Source of the DNA: Actinomycetota bacterium
GTDB lineage: Bacteria; Actinomycetota; Actinomycetes; Nanopelagicales; Nanopelagicaceae
Direction of reading: 5' to 3'
DNA length: 45,930 nucleotides
NCBI GenBank assembly: GCA_026392765.1
Contig: JAPLBL010000028.1
Span: forward strand, 1-45,930
This document shows positions 277-7,806 of the stretch, in pieces; positions within the stretch are counted from its first letter, which is position 1; the number at the start of each line of letters is the position of its first letter. The translations under genes and the position numbers were made by a program. The notes below the pieces were generated by a model, which worked only from the letters and a program-made list of their open reading frames with translations, did not search any database and had not been told where the DNA came from.

Positions 277-891
277 ATGTCAACATTAAAGAAATCCCAT
301 GCTGAGTTCCACCATGGGGATTTACAGGCTGCTCTCGTTACTGCGGGGCTTCGCCATGTTGAAAAGCATGGGTTGAACTCTTTAGGTCTTCGCCAATTAG
401 CTCTGGTAACAGGAGTTAGCCCAACTGCTGTATATCGCCACTTTGCAGATCTTGAGCATTTAAAAGCTGCTGTTGGCAAAGCAAGCCGAGAAACTTTAGG
501 AAAGATGATGCTGGATGCTCTTAAATCTGCGCCAGCCAATAAAACCGCAAAGGGGGCAATAGCTCGCTTCCTTGCAATCGGCGGCGCTTATATCGATTTT
601 GGAATTAAGAAATCTAACCTTAGTGAGATCGCATTTATTTGCTTTGATTCCCCAGAACTTGAGCCAGACTCTCCAAATCCATCTGAATTGTTAATGGCCT
701 CACTCACTGAGTTAAATGAAATTGGGTGCTTGTCAGATAGGAACTACAAGACCGCTCCAACTATTGCCTGGAGTATGGTTCACGGCTTTGCTGGACTGGC
801 CGCACAAGGAGCAACGGGTAATTCTGGAGAGACGTTGGCTTCTAAAAGAGATGTCCTGATGGCAGTGCTTAAATCGCTTGATATTAAATAA
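277..891 (+). CDS. TetR/AcrR family transcriptional regulator
   Basis: HTH 'LNSLGLRQLALVTGVSPTAVYRHFADLEHLKAAV' typical of TetR_N. The ORF opens at 241; ATG 268 or 277 are more likely starts. Stop TAA at 889-891 overlaps the att repeat. Confidence 0.85.
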   Translation: MSTLKKSHAEFHHGDLQAALVTAGLRHVEKHGLNSLGLRQLALVTGVSPTAVYRHFADLEHLKAAVGKASRETLGKMMLDALKSAPANKTAKGAIARFLAIGGAYIDFGIKKSNLSEIAFICFDSPELEPDSPNPSELLMASLTELNEIGCLSDRNYKTAPTIAWSMVHGFAGLAAQGATGNSGETLASKRDVLMAVLKSLDIK

Positions 892-909
892 GAAGAGTCG
901 CCCTATAAG
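889..909. repeat. Left attachment site (attL); 21-bp direct repeat TAAGAAGAGTCGCCCTATAAG, remnant of original rnpB 3' end
   Basis: Identical to 7450-7470; integrase gene ends 4 bp inside it. Confidence 0.9.
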
Positions 910-912
910 TTC

Positions 913-2040
913 CTAGGCCAACATTCGCTGCTCATGCTGGATTTCGAGTTGTCCAACAACATAGGCGTCGAGACGTTCGCTAACTTCATGAAGATCTCGT
1001 GGGAAAAGATGGCCATAAGTATCCATAGTTTCAAGGATTGATTCATGACCAAGCCATTCTTGAATCTGTTTAGCGTTATTACCTAACTTAATTAGTACAG
1101 AGGCGCAAGTATGTCTCAATTGATGCATACCTTCACCTTTGTCAAAACCTAATGGACGAGCAATCAAACGAAACATTGCTGATGCATCTTTATATCGCCA
1201 GACATTTCCAGACCTATTCTGCAGAATCAAAGCATGAGGACCAAGACCATGTTGATCTCTATGTTCAAGCAACAACTTTTGCAAATACGGTGAGAAGGGG
1301 ATTGTTCTGTAGGACTTAGAAGTTTTCAAATGATCGGCAAATATCTTTTTGCTATCTCTACTAAGTTGACGATCTATGGTGATCTCTTGATTCTCAAAAT
1401 CTAAACGATCCCACGTTAATCCAAGAACTTCAGATGGACGCATGCCGGTAAAAAAGCCTATCCAGACCGCAATCTGCCAACGAGGAGCAAACCCGTCAAC
1501 AAGGTTCTTCACTGTTGCCATATCTAAGGGAACAATTCTTTTTTCGGTCTTAGGTTTTCTACGCTTAATCTTTGACATCGGATTCTTGTGGATTACCTCA
1601 TTGTCTAAAGCAACCCGGAGTATCGAACCTAGTTGATTGGTTAGTTTCTCAATATAACTTTGCTTTAACTGGTACCCAGTTGTTGCCACTGTGTTCTTTA
1701 GGCGAACTCTCCACCTTTGAATTTCAGATGGGGTGATTGAGCCAATTGCCCTATCTCCAAACTCAGGGTCGATGTGACTGTTGTAAATGTTCTCATAATC
1801 AATTTTCGTCTGATCCTCTACATCCAGAGAGGGACCCCAGATTTCTTGTACAAACTCACGAAGAGTCATGTTCACCTCTGACGGTCGAGTGTTCTTGCCT
1901 CTACGTTCCATTGCCTCTTGTTCTTCGGCAAACTGCTCGGCTTCCCGCTTGGTGGAAAAGCCACCTTTTTCAGCTTGTTGCCCCTGTCGGGTACGCCAAC
2001 GTGCTGAGAAATACTTTCCGCGTTTACGTGCATATGCCAT
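913..2040 (-). CDS. int: Tyrosine recombinase/site-specific integrase
   Basis: Catalytic motifs 'TGMRPSEVLGL', 'HQLRHTCASVLIKLGNNAKQIQEWLGHESILETMDTYGHL'; N-terminal AP2-like integrase DNA-binding region. Confidence 0.95.
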   Translation of the reverse strand: MAYARKRGKYFSARWRTRQGQQAEKGGFSTKREAEQFAEEQEAMERRGKNTRPSEVNMTLREFVQEIWGPSLDVEDQTKIDYENIYNSHIDPEFGDRAIGSITPSEIQRWRVRLKNTVATTGYQLKQSYIEKLTNQLGSILRVALDNEVIHKNPMSKIKRRKPKTEKRIVPLDMATVKNLVDGFAPRWQIAVWIGFFTGMRPSEVLGLTWDRLDFENQEITIDRQLSRDSKKIFADHLKTSKSYRTIPFSPYLQKLLLEHRDQHGLGPHALILQNRSGNVWRYKDASAMFRLIARPLGFDKGEGMHQLRHTCASVLIKLGNNAKQIQEWLGHESILETMDTYGHLFPRDLHEVSERLDAYVVGQLEIQHEQRMLA

Positions 2041-2923: not shown

Positions 2924-3166
2924 ATGATTGAATTGAACCGCAATACCCGGCTCACCATGCGTGAGGCGGCCGTATATCTAGGTCACTGCTATTCCTGGAT
3001 TCACGCTAACCACCGCGTACTTGGCCTTAAGGGTTACCAGATTGGCGGTCGCTGGTACTTCGATCGGGCGGACCTGGACGCATGGATCCGGAATGCAAAG
3101 GCTGGTTCTCAAACTAAGGGGTACCTACCGCTTCGTGAAACAAAGAAGGGCCGGGTGCGTTTGTAA
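2924..3166 (+). CDS. Small helix-turn-helix DNA-binding protein (AlpA/MerR/excisionase-like)
   Basis: 'LTMREAAVYLGHCYSWIHANHRVLGLKGYQIGGRWYFDRADLDAWIRN' matches the HTH_17/excisionase pattern; GGAGG RBS upstream. Confidence 0.75.
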   Translation: MIELNRNTRLTMREAAVYLGHCYSWIHANHRVLGLKGYQIGGRWYFDRADLDAWIRNAKAGSQTKGYLPLRETKKGRVRL

Positions 3167-3489: not shown

Positions 3490-4788
3490 ATGAAGAATGA
3501 TAAAATAGTTTCATCGACTCAGCGATACGGTAGTTACACCAAACCGATAGATGATTTTGATAAATACCAGAAGAGGTCAATAGGCTCTAATAGGGGTCTT
3601 TATCTACCTATTTATACGAGTATTAGTGAGTTTGATGGTGCTCCTGCCTCCAGCGAATCGCAAGATTCAAAGGATGCGGAGCGGGGCTATCTATCTACTG
3701 GTACATGTGGGGTAGATAAGACCCGTATAGCGGTAGGAATACAGTCAGATAGCGTGCATATCCCAACATTTCTTGAAAAACTTCTCCCCGCGAGAGGCGG
3801 CGGAACGCCCAGCGATGGCGTTGTAAAGATTGAAGGCTTTCTTTCTGTCTACATTAAGTGGGACTTCTTAAATCAAAGACTGTACTTAGAATTCAACCCG
3901 TCTGATCTCTGCAGAGATGATGGAACAGAACTGCTGCCGCTAGAACTTCTATCCATGGCCACAGAGATAGTAATTCGTAGGGTCTTTTTACTAGGTGACC
4001 CGGATGCACTTCCTATAGGCGCCAAACCTGGAGCCAAAAAGGGTGAGCACTTCATACTTCCTGACGATTGGACCAAAGATATTGAGGTCTTTCGCCTCGA
4101 CCTGGCAAGGGATTTTCACATTACTGATCCTAGGTTCTCACTGCGGCAGCTTGAACATCTTTGGCCCAGTAGATCCAGGTACAAAGCGGCGACCCACTTT
4201 CTCAACGGCGGAAAGCTAAACACTTTGAGCTACCCGGTTGCAGACCGAACTACCAAGATCAAGCTGTATGACAAGCATGTAGAGAGAAAAAACAAGCCGA
4301 TAAAGGGCGCACCACCGATCCCCCCTGGGACATTTAGATTCGAGATTTCTATCCCTCGCTACCAGCTGAAGATTGTGCACCTAAATACATTGCATGTACT
4401 CACAAAGCCGCGATTAGTAAAGCTCCTAAAAGAAAAATGGGAAGTCTCTAACTATTGGAGCAACCTCATATGGGAGGGCGAAGCGATGGATTTAGCCCAT
4501 GAAGCCAAATTACCCGCTTCGAGAGTTAATGAAGTCCTTGGTTATGTGCAATGCCAAAGCCAGGGCATCTTTATGCGATACAGCAGAACGAGCGAGCGAG
4601 CGCTTAAAGCCGATGCAAAAAAGCTCGGGTTATCCCTAAGTAAACCGATTACTAAACAGGGAAAGCCCTACGCCCATCTGCACTTTATGTCGGGGAATCT
4701 CGCTGCCCCATTACCTGAGACGTTTAACAGTACAAAAGGCGGATTGTTCAGCATCATTGGTAGTAAACCCATACCAAAACTTATCTAG
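3490..4788 (+). CDS. Putative replication initiation protein (rolling-circle/phage gene II or Rep_trans-like)
   Basis: Motifs 'EVFRLDLARDFHI', 'TTKIKLYDKHVE', 'GTFRFEISIPRYQLK' resemble phage/plasmid rolling-circle Rep proteins; position before a xis-like gene. Confidence 0.6.
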   Translation: MKNDKIVSSTQRYGSYTKPIDDFDKYQKRSIGSNRGLYLPIYTSISEFDGAPASSESQDSKDAERGYLSTGTCGVDKTRIAVGIQSDSVHIPTFLEKLLPARGGGTPSDGVVKIEGFLSVYIKWDFLNQRLYLEFNPSDLCRDDGTELLPLELLSMATEIVIRRVFLLGDPDALPIGAKPGAKKGEHFILPDDWTKDIEVFRLDLARDFHITDPRFSLRQLEHLWPSRSRYKAATHFLNGGKLNTLSYPVADRTTKIKLYDKHVERKNKPIKGAPPIPPGTFRFEISIPRYQLKIVHLNTLHVLTKPRLVKLLKEKWEVSNYWSNLIWEGEAMDLAHEAKLPASRVNEVLGYVQCQSQGIFMRYSRTSERALKADAKKLGLSLSKPITKQGKPYAHLHFMSGNLAAPLPETFNSTKGGLFSIIGSKPIPKLI

Positions 4789-4794
4789 GAGATT

Positions 4795-4995
4795 ATGAGC
4801 ACTTACCTTTCCCCCGCCCAAGTAGCGCAGATTATGGGCGTTAGCCGAGACACCGTTTATTCCATGATCCATAGGAACCAATTAGATTCATACCTATTCG
4901 GAAGAAGTAGACGCATCACCCAGGAGCAGATTGATGATTGCTTGAATCGTAGATATCAACGCCCTATAGATGCAACTAAACCAAGGCGCCTGTGA
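4795..4995 (+). CDS. xis: Excisionase-family HTH DNA-binding protein
   Basis: 'YLSPAQVAQIMGVSRDTVYSMIHRNQLDSYLFGRSRRITQEQIDDCL' is a canonical HTH_17/excisionase domain. Confidence 0.8.
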   Translation: MSTYLSPAQVAQIMGVSRDTVYSMIHRNQLDSYLFGRSRRITQEQIDDCLNRRYQRPIDATKPRRL

Positions 4996-5341
4996 ACATA
5001 TCCGATATCTACTGCTAACTATCATGATAAGAATATGGAAAGTGACCTTGCAAATTAGTAATAACCTTAATCGGCTGCCTCACCATTTATGCCTGTGCCT
5101 GATAAACGGTTACTAAGATGCACATCTATTGGAACGGCCCTTGGAAACCAAGTGGTGCGCTCGCCGGCTTATTAATATATAAGAGCAGTAGCTTTGAAAA
5201 TCATACAGAAGAGGGGGTATGCCTTAAGACGGTGATTTCTAGGGAATGCCATCAGGCCGTCTCCGTAGGTAACGTTTTTTTCCTCAAGGCCGTAGCCTAA
5301 ATTGATTAATCGGTAACGAGTTCGTTGATGATGTCAGACCA

Positions 5342-7309
5342 ATGCGAGACACTTTAGGCATGGCGAGCGACAAGGACTCCGGAGTTCCAGTAAAGCGAGG
5401 CTCAATCAGTCTTGCTCAAAACAATCCTGAGCTAGCCAAAGAAGCATTCGGGTGGGACCCAGAGCTTGTTCCTTTCGGCAGTAAAAAGAAACTCAAGTGG
5501 AAATGTCCCCAGGGTCATATTTTTGAAGCAACAGTGTCGAATAGAGCTCGCGCAGGAACAAAATGCCCATATTGTGCAAATGTTTCAGTGTTACCCGGAT
5601 TCAATGACCTAGCAACCACAAATCCAGAATTAGCGAAACAAGCTAATGGTTGGGATCCAAAAATAGTCATTGCTGGAAGTAAAAAGAAATTACCTTGGAA
5701 ATGCGATCAAGGGCATGTTTGGGAAGCGACATTGGAAGGTAGATCAGGCCAAAATAGAGGTTGCCCCTACTGTTCAAATTATAAAGTGTTACCCGGATTC
5801 AATGACCTAGCAACCACAAATCCAGAATTAGCGAAACAAGCTAATGGTTGGGATCCCACAACTGTGATTGCAGGATCTGCGAGAAAAATGAGTTGGGTCT
5901 GTCAATTCCAACATACCTGGATTGCGGCGTTATATACCCGTACCGGGAAACAGAATCAAGGTTGTCCTTATTGTTCAGGCAAGAGAGTGCTTAGCGGATT
6001 TAATGATTTAAGAACGACCCATCCCGATATTGCGAAAGAAGCAGTCGATTGGGATACGACCAAAGTTAGTAAAGGTAGTGGCGGAGAGAAGAAGTGGCGC
6101 TGCAAATTTGACCATCAGTGGAATGCAACGATCGGTTCACGAGTGCGAGGTCGCGGTTGCCCTATTTGCTCGGGTGCCAAGATTCAAAAGGGTTTCAATG
6201 ATCTTGCCACTACACACCCAGAACTAAGTAAAGAAGCCCACGGTTGGGATGCATCAACAATTTCAAAGGGTTCACCAAAAAAACGTGAGTGGATATGCTT
6301 AATGGGTCATATTTGGGAGACATCAGTTGGAGCAAGAGCAGGGCTGAATAGTGGATGCCCGTATTGCTCTGGACTCAAACCAGTAATTGGTGAAACCGAT
6401 CTTTTAACAACGCACCCTGAAATTGCAGCCGAAGCACATGGTTGGGATCCAAGAACTATCAGTAGGGGTAGTGCTAGATCGTTAACATGGAAGTGTTCAA
6501 TCAACCATATTTACAAAGCTGCTCCCGCTAGCAGAGCCTTGCAAGGTAACGGCTGTCCGTATTGTTCCGGACATCAATTTTTAAAGGGCTTTAACGATCT
6601 TGCAACAAGATATCCCGAGATTGCGGCTGAAGCAGATGGTTGGGACCCTTCACTCTTTGGTAGAGCTAGCACGAAGAAGATGAACTGGCTTTGCCCCAAG
6701 AAACATAGCTACACAACAAGAATTTCACAGAGAACTCTGAATCAAAGCGGATGTCCTATCTGTGCGGGACGCACTGTGTTAGCTGGATATAACGATATTT
6801 CTACGCTGTTTCCAGATATCGCTCGTGAAGCCGATGGTTGGGATCCAAGATCTTTTGTGGCTGGAAGCAATAAGAAACTTCGCTGGAAATGCGAAGAGGG
6901 CCACAACTGGATGGCAATTGTTAATGATCGAACATATGGTTCAAGAGGCTGCCCTACATGTGCCAAAGCTGGATTCGATCCCAACAAAGATGGGTGGCTC
7001 TACTTCTTAACTCATCCGGAGTGGGAGCTTTTCCAAATTGGTATTACTAACAATCCCAACAAGCGAGTTGGAACTCACCTAAAGTCGGGATGGGAAGTAA
7101 TTGAGATTCGTGGTCCTATGGATGGCCACCTAACCCAGCAATGGGAAACGGCCATGTTAAGAATGTTGAGGTCCGAAGGAGCTGACTTATCTAACGGTTC
7201 TGTTGCAGGAAAGTTTGACGGCTACTCTGAAGCTTGGAGTAAATCCATATTTGAGGTTCATTCAATAAGCGAACTAATGCGCATGACCGAGCAGTACGAG
7301 GAAAAATAG
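5342..7309 (+). CDS. Eight-repeat zinc-ribbon (DUF4379-like/treble-clef) protein with C-terminal GIY-YIG-like nuclease domain
   Basis: Eight ~66-aa units of 'GFNDLATTxPELAKxAxGWDPxxxxxGSxKKxxWxCxxxHxWxAxxxxRxxxxxGCPYCSG', each with C-x3-H and C-x2-C. C-terminus 'WLYFLTHPEWELFQIGITNNPNKRVGTHLKSGWEVIEIRGPMDGHLTQQWETAML' fits GIY-YIG. Start may be ATG 5342 or 5360. Confidence 0.8.
   Translation: MRDTLGMASDKDSGVPVKRGSISLAQNNPELAKEAFGWDPELVPFGSKKKLKWKCPQGHIFEATVSNRARAGTKCPYCANVSVLPGFNDLATTNPELAKQANGWDPKIVIAGSKKKLPWKCDQGHVWEATLEGRSGQNRGCPYCSNYKVLPGFNDLATTNPELAKQANGWDPTTVIAGSARKMSWVCQFQHTWIAALYTRTGKQNQGCPYCSGKRVLSGFNDLRTTHPDIAKEAVDWDTTKVSKGSGGEKKWRCKFDHQWNATIGSRVRGRGCPICSGAKIQKGFNDLATTHPELSKEAHGWDASTISKGSPKKREWICLMGHIWETSVGARAGLNSGCPYCSGLKPVIGETDLLTTHPEIAAEAHGWDPRTISRGSARSLTWKCSINHIYKAAPASRALQGNGCPYCSGHQFLKGFNDLATRYPEIAAEADGWDPSLFGRASTKKMNWLCPKKHSYTTRISQRTLNQSGCPICAGRTVLAGYNDISTLFPDIAREADGWDPRSFVAGSNKKLRWKCEEGHNWMAIVNDRTYGSRGCPTCAKAGFDPNKDGWLYFLTHPEWELFQIGITNNPNKRVGTHLKSGWEVIEIRGPMDGHLTQQWETAMLRMLRSEGADLSNGSVAGKFDGYSEAWSKSIFEVHSISELMRMTEQYEEK
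5587..5856 (+). repeat. 72-bp exact intragenic duplication (5587-5658 = 5785-5856)
   Basis: AGTGTTACCCGGATTCAATGACCTAGCAACCACAAATCCAGAATTAGCGAAACAAGCTAATGGTTGGGATCC present twice, offset 198 nt (66 codons). Confidence 0.95.
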
Positions 7310-7449: not shown

Positions 7450-7470
7450 TAAGAAGAGTCGCCCTATAAG
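7450..7470. repeat. Right attachment site (attR), 21-bp direct repeat within the rnpB 3' end
   Basis: TAAGAAGAGTCGCCCTATAAG identical to 889-909. Confidence 0.9.
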
Positions 7471-7806
7471 CCGGATCCTGTAGTTCTTTCGAACCGATCA
7501 CCATCCATCTAGATCTGTAATTACTTACAGATTCAAGCAACCTACCCGATAGCTTGCGCGAGCAACGCACTATCTTCTTGGTCTTGCTTCAGGTGGGGTT
7601 TACATAGCTACATGTATTACTACATGCACTGGTGGTCTCTTACACCGCCGTTTCACCCTTACCAATATTGCTATTGGCGGTTTACTTTCTGTTGCACTAT
7701 TCCCGTGGATTGCTCCAGGTGGGCGTTACCCACCACCTTGCTCTGTGAAGTCCGGACTTTCCTCGGTGCATTGCTGCAACGCGGTGATCCGGGCGACTCT
7801 TCGTTG
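7451..7806 (-). ncRNA. rnpB: RNase P RNA (bacterial type A)
   Basis: Minus strand carries GAGGAAAGTCCGGACTTC, conserved GGTAAGGGTGAAACGGCG and a ...GGATCCGGCTTATAGGGCGACTCTTC 3' end. P1 pairing GAAGAGTCGCCC (5') with GGGCGACTCTTC (3'). Confidence 0.95.

Follow-up and report, generated by a model that had tools for sequence, protein, structure and literature searches.

Barth, Dunham and Seed (2023; PMC10448857) described phage homing endonucleases with a T5orf172 domain, 200 of 229 of which carried at least one zinc-finger domain. The zinc-finger types were CapR, DUF723 and a third, printed as DUF4397 in the text and as 4379 in one figure legend. The authors reported that internal repeats recombine and domains are exchanged, and they connected these nucleases with phage satellites and phage-satellite conflict. 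Odn, the origin-directed nuclease of phage ICP1, shows that a T5orf172-type domain can be directed against a competing element (PMC8263062). Related in theme are the Hef-like free-standing homing endonucleases of T4-type phages (PMC3296691, PMC2988022), and homing endonucleases of T4-type phages exclude the markers of rivals (PMC2988022). Our literature search by name returned only incidental mentions of DUF4379, and PF14311 was not found.

The window, which is the whole 45,930-nt stretch of DNA that we analysed, contains a 6.6-kb integrative element in the 3' end of rnpB that carries a gene for a zinc-repeat array joined to a nuclease-like domain (array nuclease; Table 1), present as a single copy in the 1.16-Mb MAG. 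The element is bounded by the 21-nt direct repeat TAAGAAGAGTCGCCCTATAAG, and its integrase, excisionase and Rep genes form, in a small att-flanked element, the combination expected of a phage satellite, with the reservation that the Pfam match of Rep was sub-threshold; distant homologues of this Rep occur in other elements. The description of the gene as element cargo in the initial annotation thus agrees with the att-flanked arrangement, and with a sister element that uses the same site for a type III restriction-modification (R-M) system. To that annotation the function also appeared uncharacterised. The protein matched no model in PADLOC-DB 2.0.0. The architecture is not entirely uncharacterised, because phage T5orf172 nucleases with CapR/DUF723/DUF4379-type repeats have been described (PMC10448857).

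Table 1. Coordinates of the rnpB element and its array-nuclease gene in the window.
Feature	Position	Strand	Basis or remark
attL, left attachment repeat	889..909	+	21/21 match to 7450-7470
Tyrosine recombinase (integrase)	913..2040	-	PF00589 Phage_integrase, E=3.5e-21; 87-90% identical in L035/L044
Backbone protein, 289 aa	2040..2909	-	weak C-terminal winged-helix match; conserved in sister elements
xis1, excisionase-like HTH	2924..3166	+	HTH_17 PF12728, E=1.4e-7; TIGR01764 just below cut-off
Backbone protein, 105 aa	3166..3483	+	97% identical in L044, 50% in L035
Replication initiator (Rep), CRI/G2P-like	3490..4788	+	PF05144 sub-threshold, 16.6 bits vs 21.7
xis2, excisionase-family HTH	4795..4995	+	TIGR01764, E=1.1e-12; 91-92% identical in sisters
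Array nuclease, 8 x DUF4379 + C-terminal T5orf172/GIY-YIG-like domain	5342..7309	+	655 aa, ORF open
Eight treble-clef units	5423..6988	+	Pfam, unit alignment, DNA-level repeats D1-D3
Unit starts (nt)	5423, 5621, 5819, 6020, 6215, 6413, 6611, 6809	+	
GIY-YIG/T5orf172-like nuclease domain	6989..7306	+	Pfam, alignment, profile-profile, AF2
attR, right attachment repeat = 3' end of rnpB	7450..7470	+	match to 889-909
rnpB (RNase P RNA), integration target	7451..7800	-	RF00010, E=5.5e-100

The other genes of the element look like mobility, replication and regulation genes, and a role in defence could not be read from these neighbours. No methyltransferase was found among the element ORFs, apart from a 14-bit PADLOC match of ORF 2040-2909, and no packaging gene or capsid- or helper-interference gene was recognised in them with Pfam, NCBIfam or PHROGs. 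Upstream of the cargo gene, positions 5118-5199 are 86-88% identical in the rnpB sisters and could encode a short conserved peptide (MH-YW--PWKPS-ALA). A promoter or leader common to all relatives was considered and rejected, as upstream sequence is shared only by the three rnpB sisters and by the near-identical pair L041/L042.

The array had been noticed as eight consecutive units of about 66 aa with C-x3-H and C-x2-C and compared to DUF4379, and both points were borne out. Pfam found eight stretches of PF14311 (DUF4379, 'probable treble clef zinc finger') at E=4e-88 and 290 bits, against a cut-off of 24.5, and both the gathering score and the zinc ligands place the 655-aa protein in DUF4379. 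The units begin at residues 28, 94, 160, 227, 292, 358, 424 and 490, are 65-67 aa each with the eighth truncated, and have both motifs in all eight cases; among relatives the ligand columns C28, H32, C48 and C51 are kept in 82-83 of 83 units. The window array is net positive (71 K+R vs 46 D+E). At the DNA level units 1/2 and 2/3 are partly near-identical (89% for 5564-5677 vs 5762-5875), a pattern suggestive of a recent duplication or of gene conversion within the array. A two-residue 'code' in the repeats was rejected, since the variability extends over about 18 columns with no discrete hypervariable pair.

Foldseek searches of the PDB matched the DUF4379 part to trypanosome mitoribosome proteins, and these kinetoplastid proteins are the sole solved DUF4379 relatives. 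DUF4379 arrays also occur in other fusions, with REase-type or helicase/methyltransferase domains. Two Rhodococcus plasmids encode very large DUF4379-array proteins of 1346 and 1416 aa (L097:4229-8269 and L098:2905-7155); the former also contains a ResIII helicase and a methyltransferase domain and may be a single-polypeptide restriction-like system, and the C-terminal sequence of the latter resembles it.

The C-terminal domain, with its WLYFL at 6992, had been described as a single GIY-YIG-like domain, and profile comparison upheld this. In hhalign it matched phage T5orf172/MUG113 domains with a probability of 98.7% (E=3.8e-16), the partners being C-terminal domains of phage proteins with the same repeat-plus-nuclease layout, five of six of which pass the Pfam cut-offs (T5orf172, MUG113). 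The direct match to PF01541 (GIY-YIG) was sub-threshold, at 17.7 bits for the whole protein (residues 551-587) and 21.6 bits for the domain alone against a cut-off of 22.6. An alignment of 21 relatives showed an invariant Y, GI-N, R, H, E and G-Y-S/T-E-x-W, including Y13, R34 and E61 down to about 35% identity. The tyrosine of the YIG motif is Q or K, being replaced by Q in the window protein; phage T5orf172 domains have K at this position. By its profile, we assign the domain to the T5orf172/MUG113 branch of the GIY-YIG superfamily, and we predict that it acts as a nuclease.

A GIY-YIG-like fold is predicted as well: the AF2 models (pLDDT 89.8 for the domain with two units, 88.6 for the domain alone) have the order strand-strand-helix-strand-helix. 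The GIY-YIG kinship proposed in the initial annotation is shown by the sequence profile, but not by a structure search of the PDB, in which Foldseek returned no significant match to the nuclease model and the UPF0213 protein 1zg2, of the GIY-YIG family, came second at E=0.48. We accordingly dropped these matches as structural proof of a nuclease. Among viral models (BFVD), Foldseek matched phage zinc-ribbon, T5orf172 and 'Hef-like homing endonuclease' proteins, as well as a 'Homing endonuclease' of phage UB.

Related proteins were present in 21 of 201 genomes in the family search, the close ones being 44-66% identical with differing repeat numbers; complete arrays have 4-9 units, against eight in the window. 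Named Planktophila and Nanopelagicaceae records were among the relatives in one scan with one short pattern, which places the host among the freshwater actinobacteria of this family, and several relatives lie on MAG contigs, for which binning errors are possible. The gene recurs in 6-8 kb elements with differing recombinases and with rnpB, tRNA-Arg, tRNA-Leu or tRNA-Val as targets. Homologous rnpB elements occur at L035 (genome G017) and L044 (genome G085), and tRNA-derived direct repeats flank the tRNA-Arg element L034 (43 bp), the tRNA-Leu elements L037 (49 bp) and L079 (54 bp), and the tRNA-Val elements L045 (24 bp) and L082 (32 bp); at L042 and L092 the recombinase adjoins tRNA-Lys or tRNA-Val. 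The L094 relative lies within an 89-kb IMG/VR viral contig, and phage relatives stand singly between core phage genes, in RB49 between gene 32 and frd and in others beside tail or neck genes. The expectation that homologues would lie in mobile elements held for most of them but not for five (L038, L039, L040, L043 and L087), near which neither an integrase nor an att repeat was seen. PADLOC, applied to the neighbours in five tRNA-integrated elements, gave one weak diadenylate-cyclase match only.

A 1618-bp segment with the array-nuclease gene, beginning 140 bp upstream of it, is 99.75% identical between two genera (L041:3114-4731 vs L042:18384-20000) with differing flanks, a case of recent horizontal transfer. 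The 3695-bp contig L036 (G060:C10) has an exact 99-nt terminal overlap, most simply read as an excised circle of 3596 bp; besides the rnpB att core it has genes for an array nuclease and for a protein that may be secreted, and a 111-aa ORF whose winged-helix matches are weak, and no integrase was found on it. At L074 and L082 two array nucleases with differing arrays stand in tandem, and in the second L074 gene the two array types are combined in a hybrid. All complete copies among the relatives have an open ORF, and fragments or broken copies occur at L014/L029 and L091.

Comparison of the rnpB sisters separated the history of the array from that of the rest of the element. Between the window and L035/L044 the integrase is 87-90%, Rep 72-73% and xis2 91-92% identical, whereas an all-against-all comparison of the repeats gave a mean identity of about 46-47% and no diagonal. 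Units within a single protein resemble each other to the same degree (mean 47.6% for within-protein unit pairs of all relatives, n=165). The 25 protein pairs whose nuclease domains are most alike (66-87% identical) gave a similar picture, with array means of 43-48% and collinearity p values of 0.08-1.0 by permutation; L038 and L039, with nuclease domains 87% identical, share zero orthologous units. In a DNA comparison of the window with the G085 element, homology ends at about 5199 and restarts at about 7298, where the gene has its stop codon, indicating that the gene was exchanged as a unit between conserved flanks. Against the G017 element it ends at 5199 and restarts in the last unit, with scattered repeat cross-matches between. 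Judged from these identities, the arrays appear to be exchanged much more rapidly than the remainder of the element, the array being uncoupled from both backbone and nuclease. As the arrays of the three elements at the rnpB site are unrelated, we rejected that site itself as the target and consider it unlikely that the element's own integration site is a constant target. This narrows the options left side by side in the initial annotation (defence, inter-element exclusion and homing).

The position occupied by the array nuclease also holds other genes. A search for the window-type integrase found it in six genomes (the window, G017, G085, G173, G156 and G242), the G242 element being broken by contig ends, and four of the five complete rnpB elements found have an array nuclease. 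In G173 (L049) the slot holds a CapR-type zinc array, whose Pfam match to CapR is just below the cut-off, with a GIY-YIG-like C-terminus. Among more distant Rep elements, L067 and L068 have CxxC/CapR-like array nucleases beside xis2/Rep, assigned to CapR by resemblance to L049, and in L066 no array nuclease was found beside xis2. In G156 (L116/L113, G156:C43) the slot between xis2 and the rnpB att contains a complete type III R-M system, with a mod of 671 aa and a res of 893 aa (PADLOC matches of 1.4e-122 and 8.5e-110); this is the one element with R-M in the slot. The G156 element is 11.1 kb long and has a related integrase/xis backbone and a differing replication module (540 aa + 278 aa).

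A separate observation concerns the rnpB locus itself. The 26-nt sequence AAAGAAGAGTCGCCCTATAAGCCGGA, from the rnpB 3' end, is repeated in one orientation next to rnpB in integron-like arrays at L060, L061, L062, L063, L064, L065, L069, L071 and L115, with copies spaced about 160-1300 bp apart (2.8 kb in one interval), mostly enclosing a single ORF, and without a recombinase. At least three copies were present in about 50 of 298 family genomes, and the window-type integrase in six only. Their pattern resembles that of gene cassettes mobilised in trans, here at rnpB; a literature search for such arrays found nothing.

We propose that the gene encodes an array-guided DNA endonuclease that serves as an accessory defence gene of a small rnpB-integrating element against competing DNA, a reading that we judge to be evenly poised between right and wrong. 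The zinc modules would bind DNA side by side, like beads on a string, and would jointly specify one long site, beside which the C-terminal domain would cut. The element's own genome would lack this site, so that self-DNA would be spared and a methylase would presumably not be needed; the targets would be competing phages, satellites or elements. With arrays replaced or rearranged and nuclease and backbone staying in place, the target would shift over time, as expected in an arms race. Use against competing DNA is favoured by the combination of a constant cutter, a changing reader and a slot shared with R-M. Counterpoints are that the closest described relatives are homing endonucleases and not defence nucleases, that PADLOC gave no match, that the R-M example in the slot is single, that some relatives show neither integrase nor att repeat nearby, that the nuclease model had no significant PDB match, and that the mitoribosomal DUF4379 kin allow for RNA or protein binding. 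The last point bears on the explanation to which we give least credence, in which the modules bind RNA or protein in an RNA-processing or ribosome-related factor like the mitoribosomal DUF4379 proteins; the T5orf172-type fusion, the mobile-element location and the rapid array turnover misfit such a housekeeping role, as do further DUF4379 arrays fused to REase-type and helicase/methyltransferase domains.

The main rival to the defence reading is homing proper, in which a free-standing homing endonuclease parasitises the element, cuts related elements or phages that lack the gene and is copied into the break with its flanks, rival exclusion being a by-product. We consider this possible, if on the whole unlikely. 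It fits the domain family and architecture shared with phage T5orf172 homing endonucleases (PMC10448857, PMC3296691), the single phage relatives between core genes, such as that of RB49, and the close relative in viral contig L094, and it would account for exchange as a unit between conserved flanks and for the near-identical cargo segment in two genera. However, the gene recurs in unrelated backbones and different target genes with no common homing site apparent, unrelated arrays occupy one slot, although constancy of target would be expected of an enzyme homing to it, and the same slot in a sister element holds an R-M system. The two readings are not mutually exclusive, because T4-type homing endonucleases exclude rivals' markers (PMC2988022). 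CapR and I-TevI have DNA-binding roles, and on their model the array could act in the element's life cycle, as a repressor, a copy-number factor, or a replication or transfer nuclease at the origin or ends. The gene adjoins xis2 and Rep, a CapR-type array substitutes for the DUF4379 array in more distant elements, and most complete rnpB elements carry an array nuclease; yet we find such a role improbable, given that the element ends and backbone are conserved and the arrays are not, that one complete element is without the gene, and that the gene is also found in unrelated elements and a viral contig. It is very improbable that the nuclease has lost its catalytic activity or is decaying and that the arrays vary by neutral drift, as might be read from the YIG tyrosine replaced by Q, the Pfam match below the cut-off and the broken copies. 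Against this, Y, R and E are invariant in the 21 relatives, the zinc ligands are kept in essentially all 83 units, the ORF is open in complete copies, and phage T5orf172 domains have K at the same YIG position.

If the defence reading is true, a homing-endonuclease architecture known from phages serves minimal elements as exchangeable cargo, in a slot also used for classical R-M, and its hosts belong to a bacterial group that ranks among the most abundant in fresh water. The uncoupled evolution of array and nuclease predicts that each array reads a different DNA sequence. Should the units act additively, DUF4379 would join zinc fingers and TALEs as a new modular scaffold for DNA binding. More speculatively, and in our view doubtful, DUF4379/CapR arrays could form an evolvable modular DNA-reading system for a protein-guided immunity of small integrative elements, in which the cutter stays constant and whole arrays would be rebuilt from zinc units so as to target new phages or competing elements.

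Among known systems, PICI and PLE phage satellites with accessory defence genes resemble the window element in being small and integrative, with a recombinase, an excisionase, Rep and a variable accessory slot, and differ in that no packaging or capsid-interference gene was recognised in it. The DUF4379 proteins of actinobacterial and Bacillus plasmids have the same repeat family in long arrays on mobile DNA, joined to a different effector, either REase-type (MTES_1575/DUF559) or helicase-methyltransferase, in place of the T5orf172-like domain. Hef-like endonucleases, to which the likeness lies in the annotation of BFVD fold matches, have fewer zinc units and are phage-borne. Odn likewise combines a T5orf172 nuclease with an exchangeable DNA-binding part in a conflict between mobile elements, but it is phage-borne and its binding part is a RepA_N domain resembling the victim's own, whereas here the reader would be a zinc array carried by the element. 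The phage T5orf172 endonucleases of PMC10448857 are the most similar, with zinc repeats followed by a C-terminal T5orf172/GIY-YIG domain, repeat-driven recombination, and exchange of array and nuclease parts. To that phage-encoded dataset the present case adds carriage as cargo by small integrative elements of freshwater actinobacteria, and arrays that are long and uniform and apparently uncoupled from both backbone and nuclease.
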